From Chloropicon primus (lineage: Eukaryota; Chlorophyta; Chloropicophyceae; Chloropicales; Chloropicaceae): a DNA stretch of 64,000 nucleotides. Made by a program: the position numbers and the translations under genes. The stretch is taken from the NCBI GenBank assembly GCA_023205875.1, contig CP060764.1, positions 496,001 through 560,000 of the forward strand. The letters run 5' to 3'. Below are positions 2,205 to 48,192 of the stretch, in pieces; position 1 is the stretch's first letter; the number at the start of each line of letters is the position of its first letter. The notes under the pieces are model-generated. The model did no database searches. It saw only the letters and a program-made list of their open reading frames with translations, and had not been told where the DNA came from.

Positions 2205-4310
2205 ATGAGTCATATGCTGAACATCGATAACGAGACGGAGTGGGAGGGACTCGTGTCAGACTTGCTCGTGGACGAAGGTGGCCAGGGCGAGAGAAGCAGC
2301 AGCGCGTTGAGCGACCTGCAGAACTCTTGGGGCGGGCGAATGGTGGAGGGGCAGCAGCACCAGAGGCACGTGTCCGTCCCGAGGGAGACGCTGAACGCGG
2401 TCTTGGGCGAGGAGGGGGAGGCTGGCTTCAGCCAGGGGCACCACGCGGGCCACCGGAGCTACTACTCCGATCAGCAGAACCCGTTTCACCAGGGCGTGTC
2501 GATTCGGCCGCCTCAGACTTTCTTGGGGCAGCCTCACCGGCAGGGCAGCTCGGCGGAGGACGTGGCCTTCGCCGCGTTCAGCCAAGGGCCAGAGGTCGAG
2601 GCGTACAGAGGAATTCAGGCCCAGAGGGGGTCGAGCAGGTCGCCGCAGAGCATGCCGCCGCAGAACATGCCGACGCAGAACATGCCGACGCAGTTCGGGG
2701 GCCAGATGGACTACATGAACAGGCAAGTCAACAGCGACATGTTGCTGCACACGCAGAACGTCGGTGGTGGTGGGAGCATAGATCTCGAGGACTTGGATAC
2801 GACTATGGACAGTCTTGGCGGTGTCCAGTCGCATGCGTTGGGGAGCAATTTCACCTTACAGAGCGACCACGAGTACACGTCCAGGACACTTTTTGTGAGG
2901 AACATAAGCAGCAACACGGAAGACCCCGAGCTCATCGACCTCTTTGGTGCCTACGGCGATATAAGGGACATGTACTCGGCCTGCAAGTACAGGGGCTTTG
3001 TGATGATCTCGTTTTTTGACGAGAGGAGCGCGATGGCCGCGATGGAGTGCCTTCAGGGGAAATCGCTTCGGAGGAGGAAAATGGATATACACTTCTCCAT
3101 CCCAAAAGAGAATCAAACGGACTGCGGGATGCTGATCCTATTTAACGTGGAGCAGAGCATGCCGAACACCGTGATCGCGAACCTGTTCCAGGCTTTTGGG
3201 GAGATCAAGTCGATGAAGTCCCTCCACATTCAGCAGACGTACCAGAGCGCGAGGACGACGGTGAGAATGATAGAGTATTACGATGAAAGGCACGCCGCCG
3301 CCGCTTTGAAGTCCTTGAACAACACGGAGCTTTGGAACAGAAGGATAAAGATCCAGTTTGGGAGGGTTGGGAGAGTTTTGAACATGCAGAGAATGCAGAG
3401 GATGCAGCCAAACCCGCAGAATCAGCACAGTCCGTCGGCCGGGCAAAGTATATCAGCAGCCGCAGTGGACTACGATGCAGGCGATCACCATGTCCACCAG
3501 GTGAGGCCTGAAGCCAGGTATTCCGCAAATGTTATGGGGGTGCAGGGCAACATGGATGCACCACCTCATGGGGTCGGGTCGAGCAGGGGATTCGTGTACA
3601 ACCAAAGCCCACCCGGGCAGCAGCAAGGACGCTTCCCTTATGACAATAGGAGCAGGGAGCAGCACCGCATGTCCAAGAGGGGTGGGGGGGAATCTTTCAA
3701 ATCCAAGAAGAAGTCCCACTTCAGCCTGAACCTGCAGAACATCGCGGAGGGCAAGGACACGAAGACGACAGTGATGATCAGGAACATTCCCAATAAGTAC
3801 ACACAAAAGATGCTCTTGGCCGAGGTCGACACGGAGCTGCAGGGCAAGTACAACTTTTTCTACCTGCCGATCGACTTCAAGAACCAGTGCAACGTGGGCT
3901 ATGCGTTCATCAACCTGACGGACCCCTTGTGGATTCTCAAGCTTAATGAGAAATTCAATGGCAAGAGGTGGTCTCACTTCAACAGTGGGAAAATCTGCGA
4001 GATCACTTACGCGAGGATCCAAGGCAAGGAGGCTCTGGTTGCTCATTTTAGGCACTCGACCCTGATGCAGGTGGACGAGAGCTGCCAGCCGCTACTTTTG
4101 AATGGGAACCAAGAGGTGGAAGAGATTTTTGCGTTTGCAGGGAGTCCGAACCAGTCGCGCAAAGGTGCACCACAGAATCGCCAGCACCGGCAAGGTGGGC
4201 ACCAGGGCCAGAATCAGAGAATGCAGCAGGGTATGAACAAGCAGAACCCGGGCGGTGTTGATTCTAAGAGCGATAGCGGCTCCCCTCCGCCGTTGGAAGT
4301 GGCGAATTAA
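2205..4310 (+). CDS. Mei2-like RNA-binding protein with three RRMs
   Basis: A 701-residue intronless protein. The N-terminal 220 residues are low-complexity (Gln, Gly, Met, Asn), including a short QNMPTQNMPTQ repeat. RRM1 follows at about 228-295 (TLFVRNISS as RNP2, YRGFVMISF as RNP1), and RRM2 at about 303-390. A third RRM with the Mei2 signature lies near 520-620 (TTVMIRNIPNKYTQ, then YAFINLTDP). That C-terminal RRM and the order of domains are diagnostic of the Mei2/AML family, which binds RNA and controls meiotic entry in fission yeast and growth and meiosis in plants. The role here is inferred from family only. The leader carries a TG repeat. Confidence 0.93.
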   Translation: MSHMLNIDNETEWEGLVSDLLVDEGGQGERSSSALSDLQNSWGGRMVEGQQHQRHVSVPRETLNAVLGEEGEAGFSQGHHAGHRSYYSDQQNPFHQGVSIRPPQTFLGQPHRQGSSAEDVAFAAFSQGPEVEAYRGIQAQRGSSRSPQSMPPQNMPTQNMPTQFGGQMDYMNRQVNSDMLLHTQNVGGGGSIDLEDLDTTMDSLGGVQSHALGSNFTLQSDHEYTSRTLFVRNISSNTEDPELIDLFGAYGDIRDMYSACKYRGFVMISFFDERSAMAAMECLQGKSLRRRKMDIHFSIPKENQTDCGMLILFNVEQSMPNTVIANLFQAFGEIKSMKSLHIQQTYQSARTTVRMIEYYDERHAAAALKSLNNTELWNRRIKIQFGRVGRVLNMQRMQRMQPNPQNQHSPSAGQSISAAAVDYDAGDHHVHQVRPEARYSANVMGVQGNMDAPPHGVGSSRGFVYNQSPPGQQQGRFPYDNRSREQHRMSKRGGGESFKSKKKSHFSLNLQNIAEGKDTKTTVMIRNIPNKYTQKMLLAEVDTELQGKYNFFYLPIDFKNQCNVGYAFINLTDPLWILKLNEKFNGKRWSHFNSGKICEITYARIQGKEALVAHFRHSTLMQVDESCQPLLLNGNQEVEEIFAFAGSPNQSRKGAPQNRQHRQGGHQGQNQRMQQGMNKQNPGGVDSKSDSGSPPPLEVAN

Positions 4311-42725: not shown

Positions 42726-43104
42726 CACGTAATGCGACGTAATGCGACCCAAGATGGCGTCATATCCCATCATCCCCCAGCCTCTCCTCTCCATCCCACC
42801 CAATCGTATGCGAACAACAGCCTGTGTTGTGCGTTGTGTTGATCCCGCCGGCAGTGGGTCCCGCGGTCTAGCAACGCCATGTCTCCATCCCTCAAGGGCA
42901 TCCCATTCAGAGAATCTTCACGAGGATCTCTCTCCCGCCGGCAGTGGGTCCCACGGTCTCGCCCCCTTGTCTCCATCAAGGGGATCTCTCAAAGAATCTC
43001 AGAGGATCTCTGATGACTGAGGTGGAAGACCAGAGACCAGACGAGAGGAGCGACAGACGAGAGTGACTCTGGTCTCGCACGGACGAGGGAGGGAGAGAGA
43101 GAGG
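42726..43104. other. Intergenic region with an 85-90 bp direct repeat
   Basis: A short duplicated CGTAATGCGA lies just after the amidase stop, then two copies of a longer unit (see repeat entry). The rest is GA-rich leader of the SPX gene. Confidence 0.6.
42844..43012. repeat. Two tandem copies of an about 89-bp unit
   Basis: CCCGCCGGCAGTGGGTCCC begins at 42844 and again at 42933. Each copy is followed by CGGTCT, TGTCTCCATC and an AGAATCT...GAGGATCTCT tail. The copies are imperfect, so the duplication is not brand new. I did not notice the unit elsewhere in the window. Confidence 0.75.
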
Positions 43105-44433
43105 ATGAAGTTCGGGAAGCAGCTAGGAAAGGGTGCCATCCGCAGGTGGGTGGCGTTTTACATCAACTACAACTTGGTCAAAACCACGCTCGGCGGCGAG
43201 GGGGAGAGTAACGCTCGGGCAGAAAACGCCTCCCAGCAGGAGCAGCAGCTGAGGGGACCTCGGAGTGTTTCGGATTCCTTCGCCGCGGCGCTTCAGTCGG
43301 AGGTTCACAGGTGCTCGTCCTTCTTCGTCGAGAAGGTCGAGGAGCTCGAGGCCCTCGTGAAGAGGGGGGAGGGCACGGAGTCGACGGACGAGCAACTCGC
43401 GGAAGCTTGCCTCGAAGTTCTCGAGCTCAGGAGGTTTGCTTTTCTGAACTGCATGGCTATCGTGAAAGTCGTGAAGAAGAGGAACAAGGTCCTGCGTGAC
43501 GCCATAGCGAGCGGGAAGGTCGAGGAGATCTCCGCCCTCTCCGTTCTCATGCACCAGAGCTTCTTCTCGTGTCCTCGGTTTGGGGCGCTCGTAGGGACCG
43601 CCGAGTCGGTTTTCCTGGGCCTCTCGGAGGCGAAAACGGGGGAGGAGGGGGCGGCCTCGAGCTGGACCAGCCACGGGCCAATCAGGCGGACGAGGGCGCT
43701 GGGGAGGCTGACGGTGGTGCTGGACCTCGACCAGACTATGATCCTTTGCCTGGCTCAGTCCAAAATCCTCAGCTTGTCGAGATCGAGAGAGGCTGAAGAG
43801 AATGTCAAGAGCCTCCAATTTTGGAACGTTCAGATGGAGCACGTCCGGTACCCTGTGAAGGTGTTCATTAGGCCCGGGCTGAGGGAATTCTTGCGGGGCC
43901 TGGCTTCGATGAACGTCGACGTCATTGTGTTCACGGCCGGTATCGAGGCTTACGCTCGTCCGATCCTCGACAAAATCGAGGCCTTTGCATCCATCAAGTT
44001 CCTTCGGAGGTTGTACCGCAACTCGACGACGAGGACCGAGCAGTACAACACCGTGAAGGACCTGAGCACCCTGGATCTCGATCTCGCGAGGACGGTGCTG
44101 CTGGATGACAACCCCATGAGTTTCAGCCTTCAGCCCAACAACGGCGTTCCGGTGATGCCTTTTTCCCCGCTGGTGAGCGAGCAAGAAGGTTATCTGGTCC
44201 AGCTACTTCCGGTCCTCGAGGCCTGCGAGAGGGAGCCTGACGTCCGACCTTTCCTCAGGCAAAAGTACAAGATGCACGGTTGGTTCACCCAGCTCGGCGT
44301 CCATTGCCCGGAGGAGGAGCAGGGAGAAAGGCCAGGTCTGCAGAGCTTGGTTCGCGACTTTGCCCAGCAAATTCCGGTGCATCACGGCACCACGAGCATG
44401 CCGCCATCGCCGCGGCGACTAAGGATGGCTTGA
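43105..44433 (+). CDS. SPX domain fused to an FCP/SCP-type HAD phosphatase
   Basis: A 442-residue intronless protein. It opens with a standard SPX start, MKFGKQLGKGAIRRWVAFYI followed by NYNLVK. The last SPX helix is at about 122-144 (NCMAIVKVVKKRNKVLRD), with the Lys cluster that binds inositol pyrophosphates in known SPX domains. From about 203 comes a CTD-phosphatase-like HAD domain: LTVVLDLDQTMI (catalytic DxDxT), FIRPGLREFLRGL, VIVFTAGIEAYA, and YNTVKDLSTL then VLLDDNPMSFSLQPNNG. The enzyme would be a phosphoprotein phosphatase controlled by phosphate status. That control is inferred from the domains. I do not recall this pairing among known SPX proteins. TGTAA lies three bases after the stop codon. 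Confidence 0.92.
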   Translation: MKFGKQLGKGAIRRWVAFYINYNLVKTTLGGEGESNARAENASQQEQQLRGPRSVSDSFAAALQSEVHRCSSFFVEKVEELEALVKRGEGTESTDEQLAEACLEVLELRRFAFLNCMAIVKVVKKRNKVLRDAIASGKVEEISALSVLMHQSFFSCPRFGALVGTAESVFLGLSEAKTGEEGAASSWTSHGPIRRTRALGRLTVVLDLDQTMILCLAQSKILSLSRSREAEENVKSLQFWNVQMEHVRYPVKVFIRPGLREFLRGLASMNVDVIVFTAGIEAYARPILDKIEAFASIKFLRRLYRNSTTRTEQYNTVKDLSTLDLDLARTVLLDDNPMSFSLQPNNGVPVMPFSPLVSEQEGYLVQLLPVLEACEREPDVRPFLRQKYKMHGWFTQLGVHCPEEEQGERPGLQSLVRDFAQQIPVHHGTTSMPPSPRRLRMA

Positions 44434-44577: not shown

Positions 44578-45177
44578 TCAAGCGAGGATCTCCCTTCTGC
44601 TGTCCTTGTAGAGGGCGCTGCTGGAGAACCCGAAGAACTCGTCTACGAACTTCTTCTTCGCCTCCTCGTTCGGCATGCCCTTGACGACATTCCAAGAGTC
44701 CCAAACGAACCTGCCGTGAAAGTCGATGTTGCCGTTGTCGGCAAACATGGGGCAGTCCTCGGTCAAGTCACCCTCGAGGGCCTGCTTCATCAGGCCGAAG
44801 AGCTTGTAGTACATATCAGCCTTCCTCGTGGCACCGCCAGGCATCTTCACGATGCGCCACTTGAGCTTCAAGTACGTGTCGCAGAGCTGCTTGAACTTCA
44901 TGTCACTCTCGACGAACTTCTTCAGCTTCTCGGAGTCATCCCCAGCAGACTGGAAGAGGGACTTCCTGCTGTCAGCGTCTGCCTTGAGCAGAGCTCTCTT
45001 CAGCTTCCTCTTGCTGGCCCTGAGCGTCTGTCTCTCTGGGCTTGGGACGTTCTCGAGGAAGCTCGCGCTCTTCACCGCTTCGATGAGCTTCGAAACGTCG
45101 TCACCAGCATCAAGCAGACGCTTCATGGCAGATGCTGCATCGTTGTAGTACTCATTGTAGTTCGTGCGGTCAGGCAT
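44578..45177 (-). CDS. Acyl-CoA-binding-like protein with an N-terminal helical extension
   Basis: A 199-residue intronless protein. The C-terminal 95 residues resemble acyl-CoA-binding proteins: ADMYYKLFGLMKQALEGD matches the usual LYgLYKQAtxGD, and RFVWDSWNVVKGMPNEEAKK matches the KWdAWxxlkGmsxeeA helix. The N-terminal 100 residues are charged and helical (RQTLRASKRKLKRALLKADA), with no recognised fold. ACBPs bind long-chain acyl-CoA and move it within the cell. The extension may add a protein or membrane contact. The spacing in the binding loop differs from typical ACBPs, so ligand binding is not certain. Confidence 0.75.
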   Translation of the reverse strand: MPDRTNYNEYYNDAASAMKRLLDAGDDVSKLIEAVKSASFLENVPSPERQTLRASKRKLKRALLKADADSRKSLFQSAGDDSEKLKKFVESDMKFKQLCDTYLKLKWRIVKMPGGATRKADMYYKLFGLMKQALEGDLTEDCPMFADNGNIDFHGRFVWDSWNVVKGMPNEEAKKKFVDEFFGFSSSALYKDSRREILA

Positions 45178-46103: not shown

Positions 46104-46215
46104 GCGTTTTGCTGCGGGATGCCGGCGCGCGCAGGAGTGTGCCTCGTCGTTGTTGTTGTTGTGGACGAGAAGGAATAGGATTCCTGTTAGATTCAGAGGA
46201 TAGGAGCAGGACTTG

Positions 46216-48192
46216 ATGAAGATGACGACGACGGGTGGTTTGAGTCCGATACAGGAGAATGTGAGAGCGGGGACGACGGAGAGGTTGGTGTTCAGCGACT
46301 TGGTGAGGACGAGCTTGAGCAGGCAGGAGGACGCGTCCCTCCTGAGGGTGATACTTGCTGGGAAGGATGGGCTTCGGAGTCAGGAGAAGAGGACCAAGGC
46401 GATCAGGGAGGTGGAAGTGAGGGAGTGCTGGAGGGTGGCGAGGGAGAAGGAGATCCTCGCAAGGGCGAACGAGTTCGGACTGGTCTCGGTGGAGAATCCG
46501 GAGGAGAGGCGAAACCTCGCGGACCAGATTGCCTCGTTCACTCGCCTCTCGCGTTTCCAGGCCACAGACTTTGAGTACAACAACAAGGCCTCTTCGCAGA
46601 GGGACTTGTGGCTGGGCGGAGGGCAGGATGCGAGGCGGACGGCGACGAGGAGGTCCCCGTCTCCCTACGGCGGCGTCTCTGGGTCGCAGAATGGGAGGGT
46701 GAGGCCGAGCTCCGCGAGACCGTCCTCCTCGGGGAGGACCTCCAGGTCCATGACGGCGAGCGCGTACGGTGTCGCCCAGGGCAAGACGACCGCTGAGAGG
46801 AGGAAGGGGCTCCTCAGCAATGGAACCAACGCGAGGTCGGGTCAGCTGACGTCGTCTTCGTCGTCATCGAAGGCTTCCACGGGGCGCCACGCCTTGCCGC
46901 GGAAGGAGGAGCAGCCCAGGCGGACGAGAGTGCGACCCAGCAGCGCCCCCGTGATGAGGAAGAAAACCCAAACCGAGACGAAGCTCCTCGACATCACGAA
47001 GACGCTTCTCAAGGGGCTGGAGAATCACAAGTCGGCCGACGGCACGACTGACGCGCTCAAGGCCCTCGAGAAGAACGTCAGCGAGGCTCAGACCCAGCTG
47101 TCTGACCTCGTCGCGGCGGCGGGGAAGAAGTTGCAGGCTCCCCCCTCCACCCCGGTTGCCCCGATGACTTCCTCGTCCGTCACCGCGACCTCGCCCAGCG
47201 ACAGGTTCCGCATGCACCTGACCAAGCTGGGCTACTTTGGCTCCACCAAGGCCGACCTCGTGATTGCCGAGCACCAGAGGCAGAGGCACGCCATCCTGGT
47301 GATCCAACGGGCGGCGAGGAAGCTTCTTCAGCGGAAAGCCCTCGAGAAGAAGAAGCAGGAGGAGGTCGAGGAAAGGAAGAGGAGGGCGCTGGAGTTCAGG
47401 CACGATTGCGCGAGGGTCATCCAGGCCTGGTACCGCTCTAAAATGGAGGAGAGAGCTCAGCGGGCGGGAACACTGGAAAGGTGCAAGAAGGGTCTTGCCG
47501 CCAGGGCGATTCAGAAGCACTACAGGTACCACCGACTCATCAAGGTCTTCCGGGCAGAGGCGCCGGATCACATCTCGGGGGCAGGCGCGCCGGCGGGGGG
47601 GAGGGGCGCCATCCCATCCGCGTGGAGGGCCGCCAACATCATACAGAAGTGCTTCAGGATGCACAGGGTCCAGAGGAGGCTCCGGGCCGCGAGAAGCGAG
47701 GCGTCCGAGTTCCTGCAATGGAGGCGGGCGATGAAAGCCTCGTGGTCGGACCACAAGAGGCAAACTCTCGAGACCCTTGGCGCCCAGTCGTACCTCGTCT
47801 TCTTGTTTTTCTCTTCGGGAAGAGAGACGGAGAAGGTGATGGCCCACGTGAGAGAGGAGGAAAAGATGTTCTCCACATCGTGGCTGAAGTACGAGAGGAA
47901 GGTGAAGAGGAAAGCTCTCCACAAGCCGCTGCCTAGGAATTGGGTCCCGCACAACGACGCAGTCACGGGAAAGATCTACTTTATCAACACGAGGACGAAC
48001 GAGGCTTACACCACCCACCCCAACTTGCGGGAAATCGCTCCAGACTTGGCAGCTCAGAGGGAGAGAGCTAGCATCGCGAAGTACACGAGAATCTCGGTCC
48101 TCCTCAAGTACATCGAGGCCATCGATGGCCGGGCCAGCAAGCTTCAGTCTCACGTCTTGCAGCAGATGGTCTCCAACAAGGGGCAGCAGTGA
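46216..48192 (+). CDS. IQ-motif and WW-domain protein, probably centrosomal or ciliary
   Basis: A 658-residue intronless protein starting at the ATG at 46216. The N-terminal half is Ser/Arg-rich and disordered. IQ-type helices follow near 358-500: AILVIQRAARKLLQRKALEK, CARVIQAWYRSKMEERAQ, AARAIQKHYRYHRLIK and AANIIQKCFRMHRVQRRL. Near 575-610 is a WW domain (LPRNWVPHNDAVTGKIYFIN, then THPN), with the first Trp and the Tyr-Phe pair but no second Trp. IQ motifs bind calmodulin and WW domains bind proline-rich peptides. This mix is common in basal-body and axoneme proteins. That localisation is inference. Confidence 0.78.
   Translation: MKMTTTGGLSPIQENVRAGTTERLVFSDLVRTSLSRQEDASLLRVILAGKDGLRSQEKRTKAIREVEVRECWRVAREKEILARANEFGLVSVENPEERRNLADQIASFTRLSRFQATDFEYNNKASSQRDLWLGGGQDARRTATRRSPSPYGGVSGSQNGRVRPSSARPSSSGRTSRSMTASAYGVAQGKTTAERRKGLLSNGTNARSGQLTSSSSSSKASTGRHALPRKEEQPRRTRVRPSSAPVMRKKTQTETKLLDITKTLLKGLENHKSADGTTDALKALEKNVSEAQTQLSDLVAAAGKKLQAPPSTPVAPMTSSSVTATSPSDRFRMHLTKLGYFGSTKADLVIAEHQRQRHAILVIQRAARKLLQRKALEKKKQEEVEERKRRALEFRHDCARVIQAWYRSKMEERAQRAGTLERCKKGLAARAIQKHYRYHRLIKVFRAEAPDHISGAGAPAGGRGAIPSAWRAANIIQKCFRMHRVQRRLRAARSEASEFLQWRRAMKASWSDHKRQTLETLGAQSYLVFLFFSSGRETEKVMAHVREEEKMFSTSWLKYERKVKRKALHKPLPRNWVPHNDAVTGKIYFINTRTNEAYTTHPNLREIAPDLAAQRERASIAKYTRISVLLKYIEAIDGRASKLQSHVLQQMVSNKGQQ

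Follow-up and report, generated by a model that had tools for sequence, protein, structure and literature searches.

In eukaryotes, inositol pyrophosphates are perceived by SPX domains, which act as their receptors. An earlier note on a stretch of DNA from Chloropicon primus had read one open frame as an SPX domain fused to an FCP/SCP-type phosphatase. Is this fusion a genuine gene, and what would a protein do that carries both a phosphate sensor and a phosphatase? The host is a picoplanktonic green alga with a compact, intron-poor genome. This small alga lives in the ocean and is frequent where the water is moderately nutrient-poor (PMC12301720). The whole stretch that was analysed (the window, 64,000 nucleotides) corresponds to positions 496001-560000 of contig 11 of the C. 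primus assembly, and this assembly (17,584,162 bases, 20 contigs) was the genome searched. Features of the gene, referred to here as SPX-NIF, are collected in Table 1 in window coordinates.

Table 1. Coordinates of the SPX-NIF gene and of its domains, motifs and putative ligand site.
Feature	Residues (aa)	Positions	Strand	Remarks
SPX-NIF fusion gene		43105..44433	+	one open frame from ATG to TGA, 442 aa, stop codon included
SPX domain	1-178	43105..43638	+	helices 9-18, 22-41, 56-90, 95-129, 157-177
Putative inositol-phosphate site, N-terminal part (Y22 and K26)	22-26	43168..43182	+	spacing as in AtSPX1 Y25/K29; invariant in the three N-terminally complete fusions
Lysine cluster K121-V-V-K124-K125-R-N-K128	121-128	43465..43488	+	spacing as in AtSPX1 K136/K139/K140/K143; four lysines invariant in 4/4 fusions
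Interdomain linker	179-198	43639..43698	+	pLDDT <50 at aa 182-196; low identity between fusions over aa 161-198 (19-29%)
NIF / Dullard-like HAD phosphatase domain	199-388	43699..44268	+	
HAD motif I, DLDQT	207-211	43723..43737	+	D207, D209 and T211 invariant in 4/4 fusions; Q210 is Gln or His
HAD motif II, F276-T277 of FTAG	276-277	43930..43935	+	invariant in 4/4 fusions
HAD motif III, lysine K318 (VKDL)	318	44056..44058	+	invariant in 4/4 fusions
HAD motif IV, D334-D335 (LLDDNP)	334-335	44104..44109	+	invariant in 4/4 fusions
C-terminal extension DVRPFLRQKYKMHGWFTQLGVHCP	379-402	44239..44310	+	common to plant CTDNEP1-like proteins

A single gene encodes both domains

One uninterrupted frame contains the three motifs singled out in the earlier note: MKFGKQL, KVVKKRNK (aa 121-128) and DLDQT (aa 207-211). 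Profile searches rejected neither the SPX nor the HAD assignment. Pfam SPX (PF03105) scored 37.3 bits in two stretches, 10 bits above the cut-off of 27.8, and Pfam NIF (PF03031) scored 123.5 bits against a cut-off of 21.8. When the SPX profile was run against the genome in six frames, three other genes were found and SPX-NIF was omitted; its SPX half hence matches weakly and becomes visible in the direct protein scan. The start at ATG 43105 aligns with the MKFGK start of the relatives P0003 and P0004, and a GTG-started version of the frame (456 aa) adds 14 upstream residues only. G+C at the third codon position was high in both halves of the gene, 0.80 for aa 1-170 and 0.757 from aa 201 to the end. 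When the genome was searched with the protein in six frames, one full-length match and three weaker NIF-only places were obtained.

Co-occurrence of the SPX and NIF/FCP1 Pfam domains, which the earlier note had named as a check, was found in three other proteins. The protein search with SPX-NIF, in which the best 8000 candidates were scored, returned 10 proteins: SPX-NIF itself, P0002, P0003, P0004 and six with NIF only. The three fusions are 41-54% identical to the C. primus protein, and the search matches showed 53% identity over 74% of the query (P0002), 44% over 96% (P0003) and 53% over 41% (P0004). P0003 passes both Pfam cut-offs. In P0002 and P0004, NIF is well above its cut-off and SPX lies below 27.8 (17.9 and 20.2 bits, respectively); the P0002 record begins within the SPX domain, so that the first SPX helices are missing. 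A profile search with the four fusions (8000 candidates scored) revealed no further fusion among 9 proteins. All searches together gave 52 distinct proteins; 20 were scanned with Pfam, and the other 32 are without SPX in the precomputed domain column. The four fusions form one group in the tree of NIF domains (support 99/91). An alignment-based search of viral contigs yielded 139 pattern matches and no relative among them, and a viral origin or spread of SPX-NIF was rejected.

These relatives also bear on the possibility that two adjoining genes had been misread as a single frame. A GA-rich stretch upstream of the start, noticed by eye, could speak for such an artefact. However, the frame is uninterrupted, both halves are coding-like, and P0003, P0004 and the partial P0002 have the same domain order and the same join. 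The two-gene artefact is largely refuted, and we give it next to no credence. A chimeric assembly or a missed gene boundary is likewise disfavoured because the same fusion occurs in P0002, P0003 and P0004. The fusion is confirmed: a single gene joins a phosphate-sensor domain to an intact protein-phosphatase domain.

The upstream neighbour of SPX-NIF is an amidase. The convergent neighbour (44578-45177, minus strand) encodes 199 aa with an acyl-CoA-binding domain, and its stop lies ~145 bases from that of SPX-NIF; no functional inference is drawn from either. In the 5' intergenic DNA, ~120 bases (42755-42873) have one counterpart found elsewhere in the genome, at C6:54335-54459 (minus), with 90% identity; this counterpart overlaps an ORF of the PEP-mutase/isocitrate-lyase family at its 5' end. 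A second, partial copy of this repeat (81%) lies just downstream in the window at 42933-43011. A large ORF at 46213-48192 (plus strand) contains repeated IQ-like motifs, seen by eye, and a WW domain below threshold (22.2 bits, cut-off 26.9). The sequence GNATATNC, which we take to be a PHR1/PSR1-type (P1BS-like) site, occurs once in the window, at 3083, where ~1.9 occurrences are expected by chance. As this site is not near the gene, it lends no support to starvation-responsive transcription.

Putative ligand site, linker and phosphatase motifs

The inositol-phosphate residues of AtSPX1 are Y25, K29 and K139 in the phosphate-binding cluster and K136, K140 and K143 in the lysine surface cluster (PMC7810988). 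The corresponding six-residue site is complete in SPX-NIF, with identical spacing: Y22, K26 and K124 in the former cluster, K121, K125 and K128 in the latter. All six residues are invariant in the three fusions whose N-terminus is complete, and 4/4 fusions retain the K..KK..K pattern. Given 38 invariant columns among 128 ungapped SPX columns, 6/6 invariant site residues would arise by chance with a probability of ~5e-4, a figure that treats columns as independent and serves as a guide only. The pattern K..KK..K is found once in the 61,233 residues of stop-to-stop frames of at least 100 aa in the window, and this occurrence is that of SPX-NIF itself. The Vtc4/Spx1-type SPX motif is YxxxKxxxK (PMC8749416); its third lysine is replaced by Gly30 in the C. 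primus fusion and by Ala in P0004, is Lys in P0003, and is not part of the six-residue AtSPX1 set. Since all six ligand-binding residues have been kept in three diverged fusions, continued ligand binding is favoured.

Structure comparison of the predicted model recovered the helical-bundle SPX fold for the N-terminal domain, and both folds, SPX and phosphatase, were retrieved by structure search from the models of the C. primus protein and of P0003. The C. primus model was built with 15 of the 22 rows of a wide alignment (P0011, P0040, P0043, P0045, P0048, L002 and L003 were dropped); the 22-row alignment was discarded because SPX-only rows were misaligned. Both models had a pTM of 0.53 and for this reason do not fix the arrangement of the two domains. 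The interdomain linker had been placed at 43600-43720 in the earlier note. A linker is present there, but it is narrower, and the model stretch of lowest confidence (aa 182-196) corresponds to 43648-43692. Identity between the fusions amounts to 53-64% in NIF, 32-55% in SPX and 19-29% in the linker. A diverged linker between two kept domains looks like the pattern of selection on two working domains.

The same linker is relevant to a reading in which SPX serves for docking or localisation and phosphate status does not gate the activity of a constitutive phosphatase. Such a role would be compatible with two domains joined only by a flexible, poorly conserved linker, in an arrangement that the models do not predict with confidence, whereas the exact retention of the six ligand-binding residues in three diverged fusions argues against it. 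We regard it as rather improbable.

In the phosphatase half, D207 and D209 of DLDQT are presumably the nucleophile and the acid-base, respectively, by HAD rules. In the alignment, P0002, P0003 and the four plant proteins P0005-P0008 share an ending of the type DVRPxLxEKFHMxEWFxKHGI, which is absent from P0004. The best-scoring NCBIfam model was the Dullard-like TIGR02251, which at 135.7 bits remained just below its cut-off of 139.15. P0002, P0003 and P0004 were all below this cut-off as well (115.3, 131.3 and 111.8 bits), and the plant protein P0008 passed it with 173.4 bits. The FCP1 model TIGR02250 scored 42.7 bits against a cut-off of 135.25, and FCP1 identity was rejected. Among solved folds, SCP2 and SCP1 had the highest Z scores for the phosphatase model.

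Position among NIF phosphatases

The NIF-domain tree contained 59 rows: 51 search hits, four C. primus proteins and four PDB chains. Support at its deep forks is modest (80-90), many branches are long and five rows have an odd composition. P0011 comes out as sister to the four fusions (100/96), a join that was flagged as possibly due to long branches, and these five rows group (99/97) with a 35-row clade that contains every flowering-plant row. Human CTDSP2, CTDSPL and CTDNEP1 lie elsewhere, together with L006 and L007 of C. primus, in a six-row group (89/87). CTDNEP1 pairs with P0048 (96/95), away from the fusions; both are long branches, and the placement is unsure. TIM50 sits with L008. SCP1 identity was rejected, as SPX-NIF falls outside human CTDSP2/CTDSPL and the genome has better SCP candidates in L006 and L007. 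Judged from the tree and the profile scores, the phosphatase of SPX-NIF adjoins the plant "CTDNEP1-like" clade and is neither FCP1 nor SCP1. The label "FCP/SCP-type" in the earlier note consequently holds at the superfamily level only and fails if it is read as an FCP1 or SCP1 orthologue.

The plant CTDNEP1-like/SCP1-like phosphatases (P0005-P0009, P0012-P0035, P0037 and P0038) bear, where their sources give a name, such names as CTD nuclear envelope phosphatase 1 homolog, small phosphatase 1-like or FCP1 homology domain protein. They resemble SPX-NIF in the NIF region (36-44% identical), in forming a supported sister clade and, in four aligned plant rows, in the C-terminal DVRPxL...MxxWFxxxGI ending. 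They differ in that most have a hydrophobic N-terminal helix (e.g. LLNWLAFFFQIF; P0032 shows none) and that SPX is found in none. By this comparison, SPX occupies the place of the hydrophobic N-terminal helix of most plant members. The plant homologue is, we assume, At3g55960; a literature search by this gene name matched nothing on its function in the titles and abstracts of open-licence papers, as far as these were available. Human SCP1/SCP2 (CTDSP1/2) are set apart by the place of CTDSP2 and CTDSPL in another tree group, SCP1 itself not being a row; their solved chains have no SPX, and the matches to them cover the phosphatase half only. The CTDNEP1/Nem1 lipin phosphatases are separate in the tree, and SPX-NIF is without an anchor-like N-terminal helix.

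P0011 (530 aa), whose NIF domain is nearest to the SPX-NIF group, is itself fused to a PHOSPHO1/PECP1-like domain (PF06888, 79.9 bits). In PHOSPHO1/PECP1-like domains GDGxGD is the expected motif. By eye, the second domain of P0011 has no DxD nucleophile motif and has GQERGD at the place of GDGxGD, so it may be a pseudophosphatase. Plant PECP1/PS2 belong to the PHOSPHO1 family. They are starvation-induced phosphocholine/phosphoethanolamine phosphatases (PMC6549246). P0011 is another hint that the NIF branch of the fusion belongs to phosphate economy.

The C. primus genome has eight NIF-domain places, the SPX-NIF gene included. Besides the SCP candidates, L010 combines NIF with a BRCT match just below the cut-off (20.2 vs 21.3 bits), a layout which we take to be FCP1-like. 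L012 (C6:170164-170658) and L013 (C12:99456-99821) are diverged NIF proteins with 39.6 and 27.5 bits, respectively (cut-off 21.8). At least three other SPX genes are present (SPX-EXS, SPX-VTC and SPX-only). Near the beginning of its SPX region, the SPX-EXS protein (L001:49-2475, minus strand) has an unusual, strongly hydrophobic and Cys-rich stretch, VLTWIVLTILWIKSWVCCCCGKG, which may represent an insert or an intron that was misread. Further parts of the pathway are a PPIP5K N-terminal domain and a MYB-CC match (33.6 bits, cut-off 29.1). One lipin, with Lipin_N and LNS2, was found in the genome. A profile search of the genome for NEP1R1 (Tmemb_18A) gave no match, and neither did the control.

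Proposed function and comparison with known SPX systems

SPX-NIF is probably a soluble, inositol-pyrophosphate-controlled protein Ser/Thr phosphatase, in which InsP8/InsP7 on the SPX domain would gate activity or substrate access. From sequence and models we infer inositol-pyrophosphate binding, phosphoserine/threonine phosphatase activity and the gating of the one by the other. The PPIP5K-type kinase of the alga would make InsP8/InsP7, which at plentiful phosphate would bind the SPX lysine cluster. Binding would displace the SPX bundle with respect to the phosphatase, and activity or substrate access would in this way track phosphate status. Two candidate substrates lead: lipin, with a role in phospholipid remodelling at limiting phosphate, and a phosphoprotein on the side of transcription, for example the RNA polymerase II tail, than which lipin is no less plausible. 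In VTC and XPR1, InsP8 binding relieves inhibition. By analogy, the enzyme would be active in phosphate plenty, but a lipin role in starvation would need the reverse; we claim no sign for the control of SPX-NIF by InsP8.

With lipin as substrate, SPX-NIF would replace Nem1/CTDNEP1 and dephosphorylate lipin according to InsP8; at low phosphate, phosphatidate would thereby be directed to diacylglycerol and to the remodelling of phospholipids into glycolipids. The Dullard-like model as the best NCBIfam score, the sister relationship to plant CTDNEP1-like proteins, the lipin gene in the genome and the join of the sister NIF of P0011 to a PHOSPHO1-like domain are all consistent with this role, and as of 2016 the phosphatase that activates PAH1 in plants was still to be identified (PMC5299491, which cites work of 2009 on the lipins of Arabidopsis under phosphate starvation). 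However, human CTDNEP1 lies outside the fusion clade, SPX-NIF lacks an N-terminal helix of anchor-like type, InsP8 would need to act as an inhibitor to suit starvation, and there is no physical or genetic link to lipin. A lipin switch is in our judgement unlikely. A related scenario, in which SPX replaced the anchor-like helix of a CTDNEP1-like enzyme in a green-algal lineage and the resulting inositol-pyrophosphate-gated phosphatase controls by direct action how far lipin (or a different lipid regulator) is phosphorylated, appears quite doubtful.

Alternatively, the phosphatase would act on the RNA polymerase II tail or on a transcription regulator, and InsP8 would then act on transcription directly. 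This fits the SCP2 and SCP1 folds retrieved for the model, and it is kept as a rival because fission yeast Spx1, an SPX-RING protein whose deletion reverses the effect of CTD mutations on pho1, is needed for the InsP8 effects on transcription of PHO genes (PMC8749416). The polymerase tail, named as a possible target in the earlier note, is nevertheless not favoured by sequence, because the low FCP1 score indicates that SPX-NIF is not FCP1, because it lies outside the human SCP rows of the tree, and because better candidates exist elsewhere in the genome, namely the separate SCP-like genes L006 and L007 and the NIF/near-threshold-BRCT gene L010. We consider action on transcription decidedly unlikely.

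If SPX-NIF is indeed an SPX-controlled protein phosphatase, phosphoproteins could be rewritten in a single step according to phosphate status. To our knowledge, the targets of known SPX effectors are transport, polyphosphate, lipid headgroups or ubiquitin (compare PMC8717665 and PMC8749416), and this would be the first to edit protein phosphorylation itself. Should lipin be the substrate, phosphate sensing and membrane-lipid remodelling would form a one-protein pathway. SPX-NIF is in this respect a candidate for a question open in 2016, that of the plant lipin-activating phosphatase (PMC5299491).

The earlier note knew of no description of an SPX domain paired with an FCP/SCP phosphatase. In keeping with this, no description of SPX with NLI interacting factor, FCP1, CTD phosphatase or HAD was found in the open-licence literature, as far as its texts were available. 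The main text of the Chloropicon comparative paper and that of the C. primus genome paper make no mention of SPX. SPX fusion classes have been catalogued from algae to legumes, with Chlamydomonas, Ostreococcus and Chara as the green-algal sampling, and NIF is not among them in the available part of that work (PMC8717665). The claim of novelty concerns the description and not the first detection; public automated annotations may already list both domains, as the precomputed Pfam column does.

The S6PP_C-SPX protein of Selaginella (PMC8717665) is similar in joining a domain derived from a sugar phosphatase to SPX, but there, according to the part available, SPX is C-terminal and its partner is the C-terminal part of sucrose-phosphatase, not NIF. 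The layout of SPX-NIF, an N-terminal SPX domain with Y/K and K..KK..K followed by an effector, is that of VTC4 (SPX-VTC), PHO1/XPR1 (SPX-EXS), Gde1 (SPX-glycerophosphodiesterase) and the SPX-RING proteins. SPX-NIF would be a further member of a class already known, that of SPX-gated effectors, differing from these proteins in that its effector is a protein phosphatase.
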